DNA from: Eubacterium sp.
GTDB taxonomy: Bacteria > Bacillota > Clostridia > Lachnospirales > Lachnospiraceae
Assembly: GCA_022776205.1 (NCBI GenBank)
Contig: JALFIK010000114.1
Coordinates: 1 to 32,187 of the forward strand
Direction of reading: 5' to 3'
DNA length: 32,187 nt
Shown here in pieces: positions 18,809 through 23,894 of this stretch (position 1 is the first letter of the stretch; the number at the start of each line of letters is the position of its first letter). The notes under the pieces are model-generated. The model had not been told where the DNA came from. It saw only the letters and a list, made by a program, of their open reading frames with translations, and did not search any database. Position numbers and translations under genes: made by a program.

Positions 18809-19261
18809 ATGAAAGGAATGAAGATAATCTGTGTGGGCAGGATAAAAGAGGATTTTTTCCGGGAAGGAATTGGATATTTTACCCGGGAAATCCGGAAAAA
18901 ATATCCGATGGAGATTGTGGAATGCCAGGATGAACCCACACCGGATGCCTGTCCCCAATCCTTAAATGACAGAATCCGCCGGACAGAAGGAAAGCGGATT
19001 CTTGAAAAAATTAAGGAAGATGACTATGTAATTGCCCTGTGTATTGACGGAAAGCATTACCGTACGGATTTGTGGAAAAAGAGGATGGGCAGGATTCTTT
19101 CCGGGACAGAGGGGAATGTCACTTTTGTAATCGGCGGTTCTCTGGGACTCTCGGATGAAGTGATTTCGCGGGCAGATGAAAAATTAAGCTTTTCTGCCCT
19201 GACATTTCCACATCAGATGATGAGGCTTATCCTCTGTGAGCAGATAGCCCGCATAATTTAA
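18809..19261 (+). CDS. rlmH: RlmH-type 23S rRNA pseudouridine-1915 N3-methyltransferase, lacking the canonical C-terminal tail
   Basis: MKIICVGRIKEDFF, VTFVIGGSLGLSDEV, LSFSALTFPHQMMRLILCEQ; ends EQIARII* before the expected ...RGxxYHK tail. Start may be 18809 or 18818. Confidence 0.93.
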   Translation: MKGMKIICVGRIKEDFFREGIGYFTREIRKKYPMEIVECQDEPTPDACPQSLNDRIRRTEGKRILEKIKEDDYVIALCIDGKHYRTDLWKKRMGRILSGTEGNVTFVIGGSLGLSDEVISRADEKLSFSALTFPHQMMRLILCEQIARII

Positions 19262-19266
19262 ATGAT

Positions 19267-20820
19267 TTATAAATGCCTGTTCTGTCTGGAACAGGCTTTT
19301 TTTTCTTTTTTAATATGTTCCCGGAAAAATTGTATGGCAAAAAAGAAACAAAAATATGTCAGACCGCCCACGGCCAGAAAATAAAAGGAAGGCAGGGAAA
19401 AATGAAGAGAGAGTACCTCAAATAATTTTTTTGATAAAATTCCTCCACAGACAGCGGTGCATACCGGAAAGAGAAACGAGTTTTCCGGATAGAAGGAAAA
19501 AGGTACCAGACGATATATTTTGATCAGATTGAGGCACATCTGGAGACAGTATCCGGCAAGAAGACCGTAAAAATATCCCCGGATGCCGTAAACCGGAATG
19601 GCGGTGAGTATGAAAAAAATTCGTACGGCGATGCCTAATAAATTATGATACAAAGTCTGTTTTGTTTTGCCAAAACCATTTAAGATGCTTGAAGAGGCCT
19701 GGGTGACATACATAAAAGGACACAAAAGAGCGAAGGAATACACATATTCTCCTGCTTCCCTGCTGTGAAAGATCGTTTCTCCCAGGGAGTGCCCGTAAAT
19801 CAGAAAGGCAAAAGCAGAAAAAATACCGATGAGCAGACAATAATGAAGGCTTTGTTCAATGGTTTCCCTAAGCTGATGGATTTTCTTTTCTTTATGAGAA
19901 GAGGAAACAGCGGGCATAAGCATTACGGAAAGAGAATTTGTGACAGCTGCGGGAAAGAAGAGGAACGGAAGCGCCATTCCTGTAAGGGTGCCGTACATTT
20001 CCAGTGCCCGTGTGTGATCCCCGCAGAATATTTTTAACATAAAGGGAATGAGAATGGTTTCCACACTGCTTACTATGGTGAGACAAAAATGATTGAAGGC
20101 GACCGGAAGACTGAAGTCGAAAAATTCCCGGAGCATTTTATTTAAAGAAACAGGAGAGCAAAGGACTGCTCTCTTTTTTTTGCCCGAAAAAAACTCGTGA
20201 AAAAAATAGGCAGCAATGGTGTAGAGCGTGGAAAGAATTTCCCCGAGAACCATGCCCCAGGCGGCGATCCGTGCATCTGCAGACAGAGCAAAGAGAGTGA
20301 CAGACAGCAGATAAATACTCCCCACCCGGCTAAACTGTTCCACAATCTGGCTGATGGCAGGAACACCGGAGCGGTTTTTGCCGATATAATATCCATGAAT
20401 ACAGGATTTTACGGAAACAAAGGGCAGGGACAGGGCGGAAATTTTTAATGCCGGGGCAGCGGAAGCTTCTTTCAGAAGATGAATGCTGAAAAAATCGGCA
20501 CAGCTAAACAGAATCCCCGCAAGAATGACAGACAGGGAGAAGGAAATCAGACAAATACACCGAATAAACTTTTTCGTATTACTGTTTGGGCCGTGGGAAG
20601 AAAAACGGGAAATAAGATTTGCCGTTCCTGTCTCGAAACCGTGGCAGCACAGAGAAAAACAGAGCATGTAGACCGGAAAAATCAGCTGATAGATACCAAG
20701 TTCTTTGGCACCAATCAGGCCGGAAAGGAATATTCTGTTATAGAACCCAAGAATTCGGGAAAGAAAACCGGAAAGAGTCAGAATCAGCGTTCCGGTTAAA
20801 ATTGTTTTTTTGTATGACAT
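19267..20820 (-). CDS. Polysaccharide biosynthesis / SpoVB-like MATE-superfamily flippase
   Basis: Multi-TM; TLILTLSGFLSRILGFYNRIFLSGLIGAKELGIYQLIFPVYML; alternative GTG start at 20835. Confidence 0.85.
   Translation of the reverse strand: MSYKKTILTGTLILTLSGFLSRILGFYNRIFLSGLIGAKELGIYQLIFPVYMLCFSLCCHGFETGTANLISRFSSHGPNSNTKKFIRCICLISFSLSVILAGILFSCADFFSIHLLKEASAAPALKISALSLPFVSVKSCIHGYYIGKNRSGVPAISQIVEQFSRVGSIYLLSVTLFALSADARIAAWGMVLGEILSTLYTIAAYFFHEFFSGKKKRAVLCSPVSLNKMLREFFDFSLPVAFNHFCLTIVSSVETILIPFMLKIFCGDHTRALEMYGTLTGMALPFLFFPAAVTNSLSVMLMPAVSSSHKEKKIHQLRETIEQSLHYCLLIGIFSAFAFLIYGHSLGETIFHSREAGEYVYSFALLCPFMYVTQASSSILNGFGKTKQTLYHNLLGIAVRIFFILTAIPVYGIRGYFYGLLAGYCLQMCLNLIKIYRLVPFSFYPENSFLFPVCTAVCGGILSKKLFEVLSLHFSLPSFYFLAVGGLTYFCFFFAIQFFREHIKKEKKACSRQNRHL
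19275..19303 (+). terminator. Intrinsic terminator of rlmH, embedded in the 3' coding end of the convergent flippase gene
   Basis: GCCTGTTC tgtctg GAACAGGC followed by T run. Confidence 0.85.
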
Positions 20821-20904
20821 AGAAACACCGTGCACAAAGGGTCATTTGATTGTATGCGGGTAAAAAAAATAAATGTATCAGGAGCAGGAAAAAGGAGAAG
20901 AAAA

Positions 20905-22134
20905 ATGGAAGTCATTTATCTGGATAATGCGGCAACCACGCCAATCCGTCCGGAAGTAAAAGAGGCGATGGAACCGTATTTCAATGAAATGTATGAAAAC
21001 CCGTCAGGGGCATATCCGTCTGCCATCCGGTGCAGGGAGGAAATAGAAAAGGTCCGTGCCGTGATTGCAGGAACCATACATGCAAGGCCGGAAGAAATTT
21101 ATTTTACCTCAGGAGGAACGGAGTCGGATAACTGGGCAATCCGGGAAACGGCCCGGTTATTAAAAAAGAAGGGAAATCATATCATTACTTCCGCAATTGA
21201 GCATCATGCTGTTTTAAACACGTGCAGAGCACTGGAGAAGGAGGGCTTTTCCATCACTTATCTGGGGGTGGATGAAGAGGGGAAAATCAGATTGTCTGAG
21301 CTCGAGAGAGCAATCCGTCCGGAAACGATCCTGATTTCCATTATGTATGCAAATAATGAAGTTGGAACGATTCAGCCGGTAAACCGAATTGGGGAAATTG
21401 CACAAAAGTATGGGATTCTTTTTCATACAGACGGCGTTCAGGTATATGGTCATCTTCCTGTTGATGTAAGAAAGAGCCATATTTCCATGTTTAGTGCCAG
21501 TGGCCATAAGCTAAACGGACCCAAAGGAATCGGATTTCTATATGTAAGAAAAGAGATCCCTTTGTCCTCTCTGATTTACGGTGGAGGACAGGAGAAGGGG
21601 AAACGGGCCGGAACGGAGAATGTTCCCGGGATTATTGGCCTGGGAAAGGCGGCGGAGATTTCCTGTGCCATGCAGAAAGAAGAAGAAAAACGAATATGGG
21701 AACTGAGAGAACATCTCATTACCCGTCTTTTATCAGAGATACCCTACTGTCGCGTAAATGGGAGCAGAAAGAACCGGCTGCCCGGAAACTGTAATGTAAG
21801 TTTTCAGTTTCTCCGTGCCTCCTGTCTGCTTTGCCAACTGGGGAAAAAGGGAATTTGTGCTTCCGCCGCATCTGCCTGCAGTACAGGATCGGCAGAGCCT
21901 TCCCATGTGCTTACTGCCATGGGGCTTCCGAGGGAACTGGCCAACGGGACACTGCGGCTGACGCTCGGATATCAGAATACGATGGAAGAAATGGATCAGG
22001 TGGCAGATCAGATAAAAGAAATGGTGGAAACGTTACGAGGAAAATCCGGACAATACCATGAGTTCCGGGGAAAAAATCTCGGGGAAAAAATCTTTCCTGA
22101 AAAATGGTTGATTCCTGAGAAGGAAAAAGTATAA
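20905..22134 (+). CDS. Cysteine desulfurase (NifS/IscS family)
   Basis: YLDNAATTPIRPEV, TSGGTESDNWAI, SASGHKLNGPKGIGFLYVRK (PLP Lys), ICASAASACSTG catalytic Cys loop. Confidence 0.95.
   Translation: MEVIYLDNAATTPIRPEVKEAMEPYFNEMYENPSGAYPSAIRCREEIEKVRAVIAGTIHARPEEIYFTSGGTESDNWAIRETARLLKKKGNHIITSAIEHHAVLNTCRALEKEGFSITYLGVDEEGKIRLSELERAIRPETILISIMYANNEVGTIQPVNRIGEIAQKYGILFHTDGVQVYGHLPVDVRKSHISMFSASGHKLNGPKGIGFLYVRKEIPLSSLIYGGGQEKGKRAGTENVPGIIGLGKAAEISCAMQKEEEKRIWELREHLITRLLSEIPYCRVNGSRKNRLPGNCNVSFQFLRASCLLCQLGKKGICASAASACSTGSAEPSHVLTAMGLPRELANGTLRLTLGYQNTMEEMDQVADQIKEMVETLRGKSGQYHEFRGKNLGEKIFPEKWLIPEKEKV
22066..22093 (+). repeat. Tandem duplication of a 14-mer (CGGGGAAAAAATCT x2) near the 3' end of the cysteine desulfurase gene
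   Basis: Two perfect adjacent copies at 22066-22079 and 22080-22093. Confidence 0.95.
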
Positions 22135-22175
22135 TAATGGGAGAAGAAGAAAATTTACGAAGGAGGCAGGATATC

Positions 22176-22976
22176 ATGGAACTTACAATGCTTGGAACAG
22201 GCAATGCACTGGTAACAGAATGCTATAATACCTGTTTTGTTTTACAGGAAGAAAAGCAATATTTTTTGGTTGACGGAGGCGGAGGAAATGAGATTCTGCA
22301 CCGTCTGAAGATAGCCGATATCAACTGGAAGGAGATTCGTACGATTTTTGTAACCCATAAACATGTGGATCATCTCCTGGGAATCCTCTGGATGATCCGC
22401 ATGATTTGTCAGAAAATGAACAGGGGAGAGTACGAAGGGGATGCCACGATTTATGCCCATGAAGAAGTGGCAGATCTTCTCAAGGATATGGCAGAAAAAC
22501 TTTATGTGGAAAAAGAAACAAAATTTATCGGAAAGAGACTTCATATTTTGACAGTGGGAGACGGAGACGAGAAAGAGATTCTCGGCAGGAAGGTGACATT
22601 TTTCGATATCGGCTCCACAAAGGCAAAACAGTTCGGTTTTTCCATGGATCTTGGCGAGGGGAAAAAACTGACCTGCTGTGGGGACGAACCTTACAGAAAT
22701 TTAGAAGAAAAGTATGCGAAAGACAGTACCTGGCTTTTGCATGAGGCGTTCTGCCTTGAATCGGAAGCGGATATCTTTCATCCTTACGAAAAGCATCATT
22801 CCACTGTGAAAGATGCCTGCGAGCTGGCGGAAAAGCTGAATGTAAAAAATCTGCTTCTTTATCATACAGAGGATAAAAATATAAAAAACAGAAAGAAGCT
22901 ATATGAAGAGGAAGGTAAAAAATATTTTCACGGTAATTTATATGTACCGGATGATCTTGAGAAAATAAAAATATAA
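22176..22976 (+). CDS. Metallo-beta-lactamase fold hydrolase (RNase Z-like)
   Basis: MELTMLGTGNALVTECYNTCF, FVTHKHVDHLLGILW (HxHxDH); AGGAGG before ATG 22176. Confidence 0.9.
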   Translation: MELTMLGTGNALVTECYNTCFVLQEEKQYFLVDGGGGNEILHRLKIADINWKEIRTIFVTHKHVDHLLGILWMIRMICQKMNRGEYEGDATIYAHEEVADLLKDMAEKLYVEKETKFIGKRLHILTVGDGDEKEILGRKVTFFDIGSTKAKQFGFSMDLGEGKKLTCCGDEPYRNLEEKYAKDSTWLLHEAFCLESEADIFHPYEKHHSTVKDACELAEKLNVKNLLLYHTEDKNIKNRKKLYEEEGKKYFHGNLYVPDDLEKIKI

Positions 22977-23027
22977 AAAGAACGGGGTCATTATACATTA
23001 CATATTTGCAGAGCTCCCTGAAAATAT

Positions 23028-23077
23028 AAAAATCCCATCGCAGTTACCGGGCACAACCCGGACTGTGATGGGATTTA
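23028..23077 (-). terminator. Intrinsic terminator of the tRNA-Arg gene (probably also serving the convergent MBL gene)
   Basis: AAATCCCATC/GATGGGATTT with inner CAGT/ACTG and CCGGG/CCCGG pairing and T tract on the minus strand. Confidence 0.75.
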
Positions 23078-23085
23078 ACATTTAC

Positions 23086-23159
23086 CGAACCAGAAGGGAC
23101 TCGAACCCCCGACACACGGTTCCGGAAACCGTTGCTCTATCCAACTGAGCTACTGGTCC
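23086..23159 (-). tRNA. tRNA-Arg, anticodon CCG; CCA end not encoded
   Basis: Reverse complement folds by hand: GGACCAG acceptor / CTGGTTC, D-stem GCTC/GAGC, anticodon stem ACGGT-TTCCGGA-ACCGT, T-arm with TTCGAGT. Confidence 0.95.
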
Positions 23160-23179
23160 ATAAATAATGTCCGTCGTTT

Positions 23180-23208
23180 ATAATACTATATTTTTTGTTA
23201 GAATGCAA
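23180..23208 (-). promoter_or_regulatory. Promoter of tRNA-Arg
   Basis: On minus strand TTGCAT, 17 nt, TATTAT. Confidence 0.65.
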
Positions 23209-23269
23209 GAGATTTTTTGCGAGTCAAAAATATAAATCAATTGTTTTTCCAAAAATGTAAAAATTTCCA

Positions 23270-23298
23270 TGGACATACCGGATATGCTATGCTATAAT
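23270..23298 (+). promoter_or_regulatory. Promoter of the leader peptide / RlmH-like paralogue unit
   Basis: TGGACA (23270-23275), 17 nt spacer, TATAAT (23293-23298). Confidence 0.7.
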
Positions 23299-23322
23299 GC
23301 ACATACATATTAGGAGATGGCA

Positions 23323-23373
23323 ATGGGAATGACAGTGCCCCGGGAAGATCAGGGGCAGGATTGTGTAATATGA
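23323..23373 (+). CDS. Putative 16-aa leader peptide MGMTVPREDQGQDCVI, stop overlapping the RlmH-like start
   Basis: AGGAG at 23312-23316, ATG 23323, TGA 23371-23373 overlapping ATG 23370 (ATGA overlap). Confidence 0.5.
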   Translation: MGMTVPREDQGQDCVI

Positions 23374-23894
23374 AGTATGAAATATATATAGAAGAACCAA
23401 AGAAAATGCAGCCATTTTATAAAAAGGCCATTGCCGAGTATGAGAAACGACTTGGCCGGTATTGTAAAATCAGCTGCCATATTGTAAAAAAGGAGAAAGA
23501 CTGGGCGAAGTATTTAAATAATCAGACGGGAACTCAGAGTTTTCTGGTGATTCCCGGAGAGGCCCGGATGACTTCTGAGATATTAAGCGAGCAGATTGGA
23601 GAATGGGAGAAAACCGGGGAGAAAAAGATATTATTTTTTATACCCGCCCTGCAGGAAGGGCAGAATCGCCAAACCGGCACACCGGTGGCATCTTCTAACT
23701 GTGCGGGCGTGCATACCCCGGAAGATTATTTGACAGTAGAAGATGTTTCAATAAAAAAAATCAGAGACCGATATGATCTGATGCCTCTGATTCTTTCTGA
23801 TTTTGTAATGTCACCATCCATGACAGGCATGATTCTTTATGAGCAGATTTACCGGGGGTACCGGATTCTTCATCATCATCCCTATCATAAATAA
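23370..23894 (+). CDS. Divergent RlmH-like SPOUT protein: degenerate SAM-binding motifs, intact C-terminal tail
   Basis: N-term KKAIAEYEKRLGRYCKI and C-term MILYEQIYRGYRILHHHPYHK match RlmH; the GGSxGL position reads IPALQEGQ and the F/LPH position reads MSPS. Confidence 0.8.
   Translation: MKYEIYIEEPKKMQPFYKKAIAEYEKRLGRYCKISCHIVKKEKDWAKYLNNQTGTQSFLVIPGEARMTSEILSEQIGEWEKTGEKKILFFIPALQEGQNRQTGTPVASSNCAGVHTPEDYLTVEDVSIKKIRDRYDLMPLILSDFVMSPSMTGMILYEQIYRGYRILHHHPYHK

Follow-up and report, generated by a model that had tools for sequence, protein, structure and literature searches.

A complementary pair of RlmH homologues in a Lachnospiraceae genome as a candidate heterodimeric methyltransferase

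Why would a bacterial genome carry two genes for the methyltransferase RlmH, each of which lacks what the other has kept? The question is raised by a stretch of 32,187 nucleotides from Eubacterium sp. (the window), which is contig C127 of a draft genome (1.96 Mb, 226 contigs, 99.6% complete) in the genus that includes Anaerobutyricum hallii. An earlier note on this DNA had proposed that the two genes, here called rlmH-A and rlmH-B (their products and homologues being A and B), encode a subfunctionalised heterodimeric RlmH. Our analysis favours the view that A and B act only together, as an obligate heterodimer holding a single composite active site, to which we assign a probability of about 0.83, and it suggests a history of the pair different from the one that the note had assumed.

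Two genes and one proposed composite active site

Both genes lie on the forward strand of the window, and the features on which the argument turns are the following:

18809 to 19261, + strand: rlmH-A, putative S-adenosylmethionine (SAM)-binding half of a split RlmH, 150 aa, without the C-terminal catalytic tail (open reading frame (ORF), PF02590, AlphaFold2)
19133 to 19150, + strand: GGSLGL codons of rlmH-A, residues 109-114, SAM bight 2 (alignment columns G103/G104/G107)
19205 to 19213, + strand: F133-P134-H135 codons of rlmH-A, SAM bight 3 (columns P128/H129, E. coli numbers)
23370 to 23894, + strand: rlmH-B, putative tail-bearing half, 174 aa, SAM loops degenerate (ORF with ATG at 23370, PF02590, AlphaFold2)
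23640 to 23663, + strand: IPALQEGQ replacing the glycine-rich SAM loop (GGSxGL) in rlmH-B, loop lost (sequence, column counts)
23808 to 23819, + strand: MSPS replacing the FPH loop in rlmH-B, loop lost (sequence, column counts)
23841 to 23891, + strand: part of helix 5 and the catalytic tail EQIYRGYRILHHHPYHK of rlmH-B, with E138, R142, Y152, H153 and K154 in E. coli numbering (invariant in 59/59 B)

The C-terminus of A reads ...LILCEQIARII*, translation beyond this stop revealed no encoded tail, and the PF02590 match (134.6 bits) covers profile positions 3-143 of 154. B matches PF02590 in two pieces (60.4 bits), reaches the profile through position 154, ending ...EQIYRGYRILHHHPYHK, and carries an extra insertion at about residues 92-125. 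Both proteins exceed the gathering cut-off of PF02590 (27 bits), and both fall below those of the NCBIfam equivalogs NF000985 and TIGR00246 (A, 160.1 vs 172 and 116.8 vs 149.7; B, 47.6 vs 172 and 33.5 vs 149.7). A profile search of the window's own assembly found no third PF02590 locus.

In the dimer of E. coli RlmH, one monomer binds SAM through L72, I74, 103-GGPEG-107, L108 and L122-V132 (Koh et al., 2017; PMC5430550), while the other monomer supplies R25, R26, R142, R154 and the tail, and the dimer binds one SAM tightly (PMC5430550). Activity is lost in the mutants E138A/Q, Y152F, H153F and R154A and reduced at least 30-fold in R142A; moreover, R154 is required for ribosome binding, and H153 is the final residue in some RlmH orthologues (PMC5430550). 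Our alignment to the E. coli sequence comprised 60 canonical, 54 A and 59 B proteins. The SAM-side residues, K42/R43 excepted, are kept at 93-100% in the 54 A proteins: the glycines G103, G104 and G107 are present in 100%, 98% and 100% of A against 49%, 12% and 3% of B, and P128 and H129 of bight 3 in 100% each of A against 7% and 0% of B. On the tail side, K25 (R25/K), R26, E138, R142, Y152, H153 and K154 are invariant in 59/59 B proteins, and the same positions are kept in A at 48%, 13%, 83%, 31%, 2%, 2% and 2%, respectively. B is also without most of the helix segment around E. coli residues 45-62. No single chain holds both the SAM loops (GGxxGL, PH) and the catalytic tail, since the loops are in A and the tail is in B; hence, a full site is possible only in an A-B dimer. 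That A has lost R26 and R142 as well as the tail agrees with the prediction of the composite-site model, a point that the earlier note had not raised. The earlier note had described A as an ORF with the SAM motifs kept and a stop at EQIARII, and B as one with a full tail and IPALQEGQ and MSPS at the loop positions; the ORF calls and profile matches bear this out, and its idea of complementary halves is strengthened by R25/R26, which it had not used.

Both A and B are under purifying selection, with omega values (NG86) of 0.11-0.16 for A and 0.06-0.13 for B among pairs with measurable synonymous divergence (dS). The AlphaFold2 model of A (predicted local distance difference test (pLDDT) 93.3, predicted template modelling score (pTM) 0.89) has B. 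subtilis RlmH (1to0, E 2.3e-15) as its nearest solved fold, and for the model of B (pLDDT 86.9, pTM 0.81, confidence being low for residues 92-125 and for the last few) every one of the 15 top fold matches is an RlmH/OrfX chain. Since RlmH/OrfX chains make up all of the leading PDB matches of A and B, both are predicted to have the RlmH-type SPOUT fold, an assignment that comes from single-chain models in which the knot itself was not traced.

We propose that an A-B heterodimer replaces the RlmH homodimer. SAM would be bound in the intact knot of A, and B, its own SAM binding lost, would dock onto A as in the usual antiparallel RlmH dimer, with the basic residues of its alpha-1 and its C-terminal E-R-Y/H-K tail reaching over the SAM of A. 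The resulting site may methylate pseudouridine 1915 of helix 69 (H69), so that of the ancestral dimer's two composite sites only one would be retained. What we observe are the sequences, the division of residues, the co-occurrence, the trees, the island boundaries and the selection described here; the physical A-B heterodimer and its activity are inferred. The H69 sequence of 23S rRNA is unchanged in pair-bearing relatives with assembled rRNA; in the draft assembly to which the window belongs, no copy of it could be located.

Two further features bear on expression of the pair:

19275 to 19296, + strand: hairpin resembling a terminator, immediately 3' of rlmH-A, 9 pairs followed by TTTTTTTT (consensus match only)
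23270 to 23298, + strand: rlmH-B promoter-like site TGGACA-17-TATAAT, with TG preceding the second hexamer (11/12 consensus matches, the regional best; consensus match only, the number of such sites being not above shuffles)

Because the hairpin lies 3' of A and the sigma-70-like site 5' of B, rlmH-A and rlmH-B are probably transcribed separately.

Occurrence of the pair among Bacillota

Exactly an A+B pair was found in 20 of the 24 genomes of the Anaerobutyricum genus, and it is carried by the cultured Anaerobutyricum hallii DSM 3353. Among the exceptions, two genomes have B only (G008, in which B lies 697 bp from a contig end, and G014, 76% complete), one has A only (G019, 70% complete) and one has neither (G011, 84% complete). 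Across 298 genomes of the family, the pair occurs in 9 further genera, and nearly all other genomes have a single canonical copy, as judged by scores and, where listed, by matches reaching the profile end, rather than by individual reading. Both halves are also present in 12 more genomes of the order, from five other families (f3, f4, f7, f18 and f20), in 5 of the 399 genomes examined across the phylum, and in Clostridium prolinivorans. Since it recurs across genus, family, order and phylum, the complementary pair is far beyond chance; its bearers include gut and soil bacteria.

Five closed genomes (G004, G336, G349, G422 and G931) hold A and B and no other RlmH; thus, the absence of a canonical rlmH is not an assembly gap. 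A complete rlmH elsewhere in the genome would have spoken against the earlier note, as would a lack of co-occurrence of tail-less and knot-degenerate genes among relatives; neither the window's own genome nor the closed pair-bearing ones have such a copy, and the co-occurrence extends from the genus to the phylum. We rejected an assembly artefact, given that the window pair does not consist of contig-end pieces and that closed genomes show the pair, and a frameshift truncation of A, as no tail lies beyond the stop in the A loci inspected. Two apparent pairs were discarded, being canonical genes with pieces at contig ends (G101, G235), and three other genomes have fragmented canonical copies (G341, G396, G414).

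Linkage of A and B is seen in many loci, and the arrangement varies. In Anaerobutyricum they are in tandem with 2-8 kb between them; at least 12 loci have them convergent, their 3' ends sharing up to 26 bp or separated by no more than 32 bp. An ancestral gene neighbourhood was rejected, as the neighbours of the window pair are, as a rule, not found beside canonical rlmH (88 loci).

Some other RlmH loci deserve mention. The only RlmH of G247 (C26:30763-31233, L065) is divergent, its loops reading AGSLGP and FTH, and has a complete tail. The sole RlmH of G420 (C125, L260) is broken by stops and frame changes with the tail still legible, and looks like a pseudogene. The closed genome G339 (C1:4540042-4543633) has two full-length RlmH matches 3 kb apart, one with TAA. 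Neither PF02590 nor the B profile detected RlmH in ten genomes that are at least 90% complete (G048, G067, G091, G123, G138, G162, G218, G236, G271 and G281); several f4 genomes of like completeness (e.g., G322, G351 and G361) are also without it by both profiles, and this family seems prone to loss.

History of the pair and the Paenibacillus islands

In an unrooted tree with canonical and A copies, B forms one clade (Shimodaira-Hasegawa-like approximate likelihood ratio test (SH-aLRT) 99.5). With the tail columns excluded, the A and canonical states require at least 8 changes, 4 of them forced by starred branches; A of G931 groups with canonical copies of its own genus, A of G590 with a canonical copy from its family, and the Paenibacillus copies with altered ends, described below, with Paenibacillus RlmH. 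On these trees, which come from short proteins and a quick search and leave many forks open, the tail was lost several times at the least, and these losses are nested in host lineages. The single B clade together with scattered, nested A copies suggests that one B family met several RlmH lineages, and that tail loss followed. Phage or plasmid spread of B was rejected, as the phage and plasmid matches are of canonical length (about 440-480 bases, not about 400), and a search of IMG/VR gave no matches.

B was found in 11/400 Paenibacillaceae genomes. The resident RlmH ends in EPYRR in G547 (P. sanguinis), in EPYRL in G549 (P. barcinonensis), G969, G983 and G1304, and in EPYRF in G1306, instead of the usual EPYHK. 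In these six genomes, the left attachment site (attL), in the 3' end of rlmH, is the core GAACCGTATC, at which the DNA changes; on the rlmH side the core continues into sequence common to the islands, mostly ...TTTAAGGGTAAAATA. The right site (attR), at the far end, reads GTGAACCGTA(T/C)CA(T/C)AAGTA(G/A), with GTGAGCC in G1306; the core with the displaced CA(T/C)AAGTA(G/A), encoding His-Lys-stop, stands 11-22 kb from rlmH. B lies between attL and attR in 6/6 islands, oriented towards rlmH. In 5/6 islands a large serine recombinase gene abuts and overlaps the rlmH end (domains PF00239, PF07508 and PF13408 in G547; recombinase-motif ORFs in G969, G983, G549 and G1306), these being identified by Pfam domains or motif only; no serine recombinase was found beside rlmH in G1304. 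At two loci (L336, 1037-3232; L354, 12657-14483) the serine recombinase frame continues antisense into the 3' part of rlmH.

Among all genomes read, 6/8 of those with an intact B and a located rlmH have an altered tail, the two exceptions being P. faecalis and P. alkaliterrae, versus 0/36 of those without an intact B (Fisher p 4e-6, with no correction for kinship). The YHK end is present in 35/35 genomes of G547's genus that have a complete copy and no B. In G1330, B is a pseudogene and the rlmH tail is intact; in G1287 and G1195, no rlmH was found within the stretch read. By analogy with E. coli H153F and R154A, which are inactive, an Arg-Leu-ending (PYRL-type) RlmH is expected to be dead as a homodimer. 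A stretch of G1306 (C5:626142-638221, L397) has five rlmH-end cores at 2-5 kb spacing, as if several tandem cassettes stood at and beyond the far end of the B island, and G946 (C3; L337, 1228-1719 and 11283-11615) has an intact rlmH and, 10 kb off, a broken second copy that ends EPYYD beside another att-like end.

We therefore depart from the earlier note on one point: its complementary pair stands, but not as plain subfunctionalisation of a local duplicate, because B is one clade, tail loss is repeated, and B in Paenibacillus is island cargo. We suggest that B came first, a single B family spreading and then meeting resident RlmH lineages. In Paenibacillus, B demonstrably travels on serine-recombinase islands, whose insertion at the rlmH 3' end replaces the last codons, turning His-Lys-stop into an Arg-Leu, Arg-Arg or Arg-Phe end. 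Once B provided a tail in trans, that of the resident enzyme would be free to decay and the pair would become obligatory. The pair was probably fixed by such a ratchet, in which B was acquired and the resident tail then lost.

It is attractive to think that the clostridial pairs also began with an rlmH island, of which they would be domesticated forms. In its broadest form, this idea makes the B family an island-borne rescue subunit: the element breaks RlmH at its att site, the partner rebuilds the active site in trans, and repeated domestication leads to an obligate two-gene enzyme in many Bacillota. We hold this only tentatively, at slightly less than even odds. Against an island origin in Clostridia stands the absence of any serine or tyrosine recombinase, by motif, near the window pair or the clostridial pairs, and island remnants around them were rejected; in G325, in which A and B are convergent and 13.5 kb apart, transporter genes lie between the two. 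Possibly, then, the clostridial pairs arose by duplication within Clostridia without an island and the Paenibacillus islands acquired B later, which we regard as a serious though somewhat less probable alternative. The diversity of B is highest in Clostridia, B is rare in Paenibacillaceae, and the unrooted tree does not reveal in which direction B was transferred; however, A-type loss is scattered and nested as against one B clade, so that a single local duplication would need later transfer of B. This alternative concerns origin only and leaves the A-B heterodimer intact.

Alternative functions and related systems

Several observations weigh against the A-B heterodimer as an obligate or necessary form of the enzyme. 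In P. faecalis and P. alkaliterrae, B stands beside an intact RlmH ending EPYHK, hence B is not always in need of a tail-less partner. K42/R43, SAM-side by assignment, are only partly conserved in A (48% and 61%). G424 (C194, L259), 92% complete, has a lone tail-less RlmH (...EILCRALIKY) and no detectable B. Moreover, RlmH is wholly absent (PF02590) from 10/298 family and 24/294 order genomes, and thus the methylation of pseudouridine 1915 (m3Psi1915) is dispensable there.

Such tolerated loss leaves room for a new role of B, in which it binds the ribosome (e.g., at H69) without methylation, or serves another target together with A, m3Psi1915 being lost; the need for R154 in ribosome binding would fit. 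We consider this improbable, as the SAM site of A is essentially unchanged and B keeps the exact catalytic residues, which a plain binder would not need, and H69 is unchanged. It is still less probable that A works alone as a tail-less homodimer, with another residue or the C-terminal carboxylate replacing the tail and B a decaying or other-purpose paralogue: the complete SAM site of A, the orthologues that end at H153 (PMC5430550) and the lone copy of G424 would agree with it, but the E-R-Y-H-K network is invariant in 59/59 B, B is under strong constraint, A has also lost the tail-side R26 and R142, and E. coli mutants of Y152, H153 and R154 are inactive (PMC5430550).

The composite site of RlmH was deduced from crystals and mutants of a symmetric dimer, and the split genes would provide independent evolutionary evidence by which to test this mechanism and the reason why a single SAM suffices for each dimer. 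Paenibacillus offers candidate intermediates, namely B beside an intact RlmH, a tail altered at the att site, and a broken B with an intact tail, by which the passage from a homodimer to an obligate heterodimer can be tested directly. Our search of the open-access literature, with subscription papers outside it, found no RlmH heterodimer (split RlmH), no RlmH work in Anaerobutyricum and no island-borne tail partner.

The pair shares fold, family and active-site residues with RlmH/YbeA/OrfX (PF02590, COG1576), the homodimeric m3Psi1915 methyltransferase (PMC5430550), but unlike in the homodimer the residues are split over two genes, one partner being without SAM loops and the other without the tail. 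A similar arrangement is seen in eukaryotic Trm61/Trm6 (1-methyladenosine 58, m1A58), derived from homomeric TrmI, in which one subunit binds SAM and a SAM-less paralogue is required (PMC6382703); that enzyme, however, is not of the SPOUT class, is eukaryotic and has no link to mobile elements, and in the split RlmH it is the non-SAM partner that carries the catalytic tail. In trypanosome PRMT1-ENZ/PRMT1-PRO, an active methyltransferase likewise needs an inactive paralogue (prozyme) as dimer partner, but this is a protein arginine methyltransferase whose prozyme is described as stabilising its partner, not as supplying catalytic residues (PMC10908127). For yeast Ygr283c/Ymr310c, a diverged SPOUT paralogue was proposed as an inactive heterodimer subunit (PMC1829167), although there in another SPOUT family (COG2106), as a suggestion only, and with no split of a known active site. 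The Paenibacillus islands resemble staphylococcal cassette chromosome mec (SCCmec), enterococcal ECC and SCC-like rlmH islands in their large serine recombinase, in attB within the rlmH 3' end and in the repetition of the last rlmH codons at the far end (PMC6222049, PMC10061031). If our reading is true, the rlmH-targeting islands, the group that includes SCCmec, would gain a novel type of cargo, namely a protein that repairs in trans the damage done by the insertion. The Paenibacillus islands differ from those known elements in that the RlmH end becomes PYRL, PYRR or PYRF and that a tail-bearing RlmH partner is carried as cargo.

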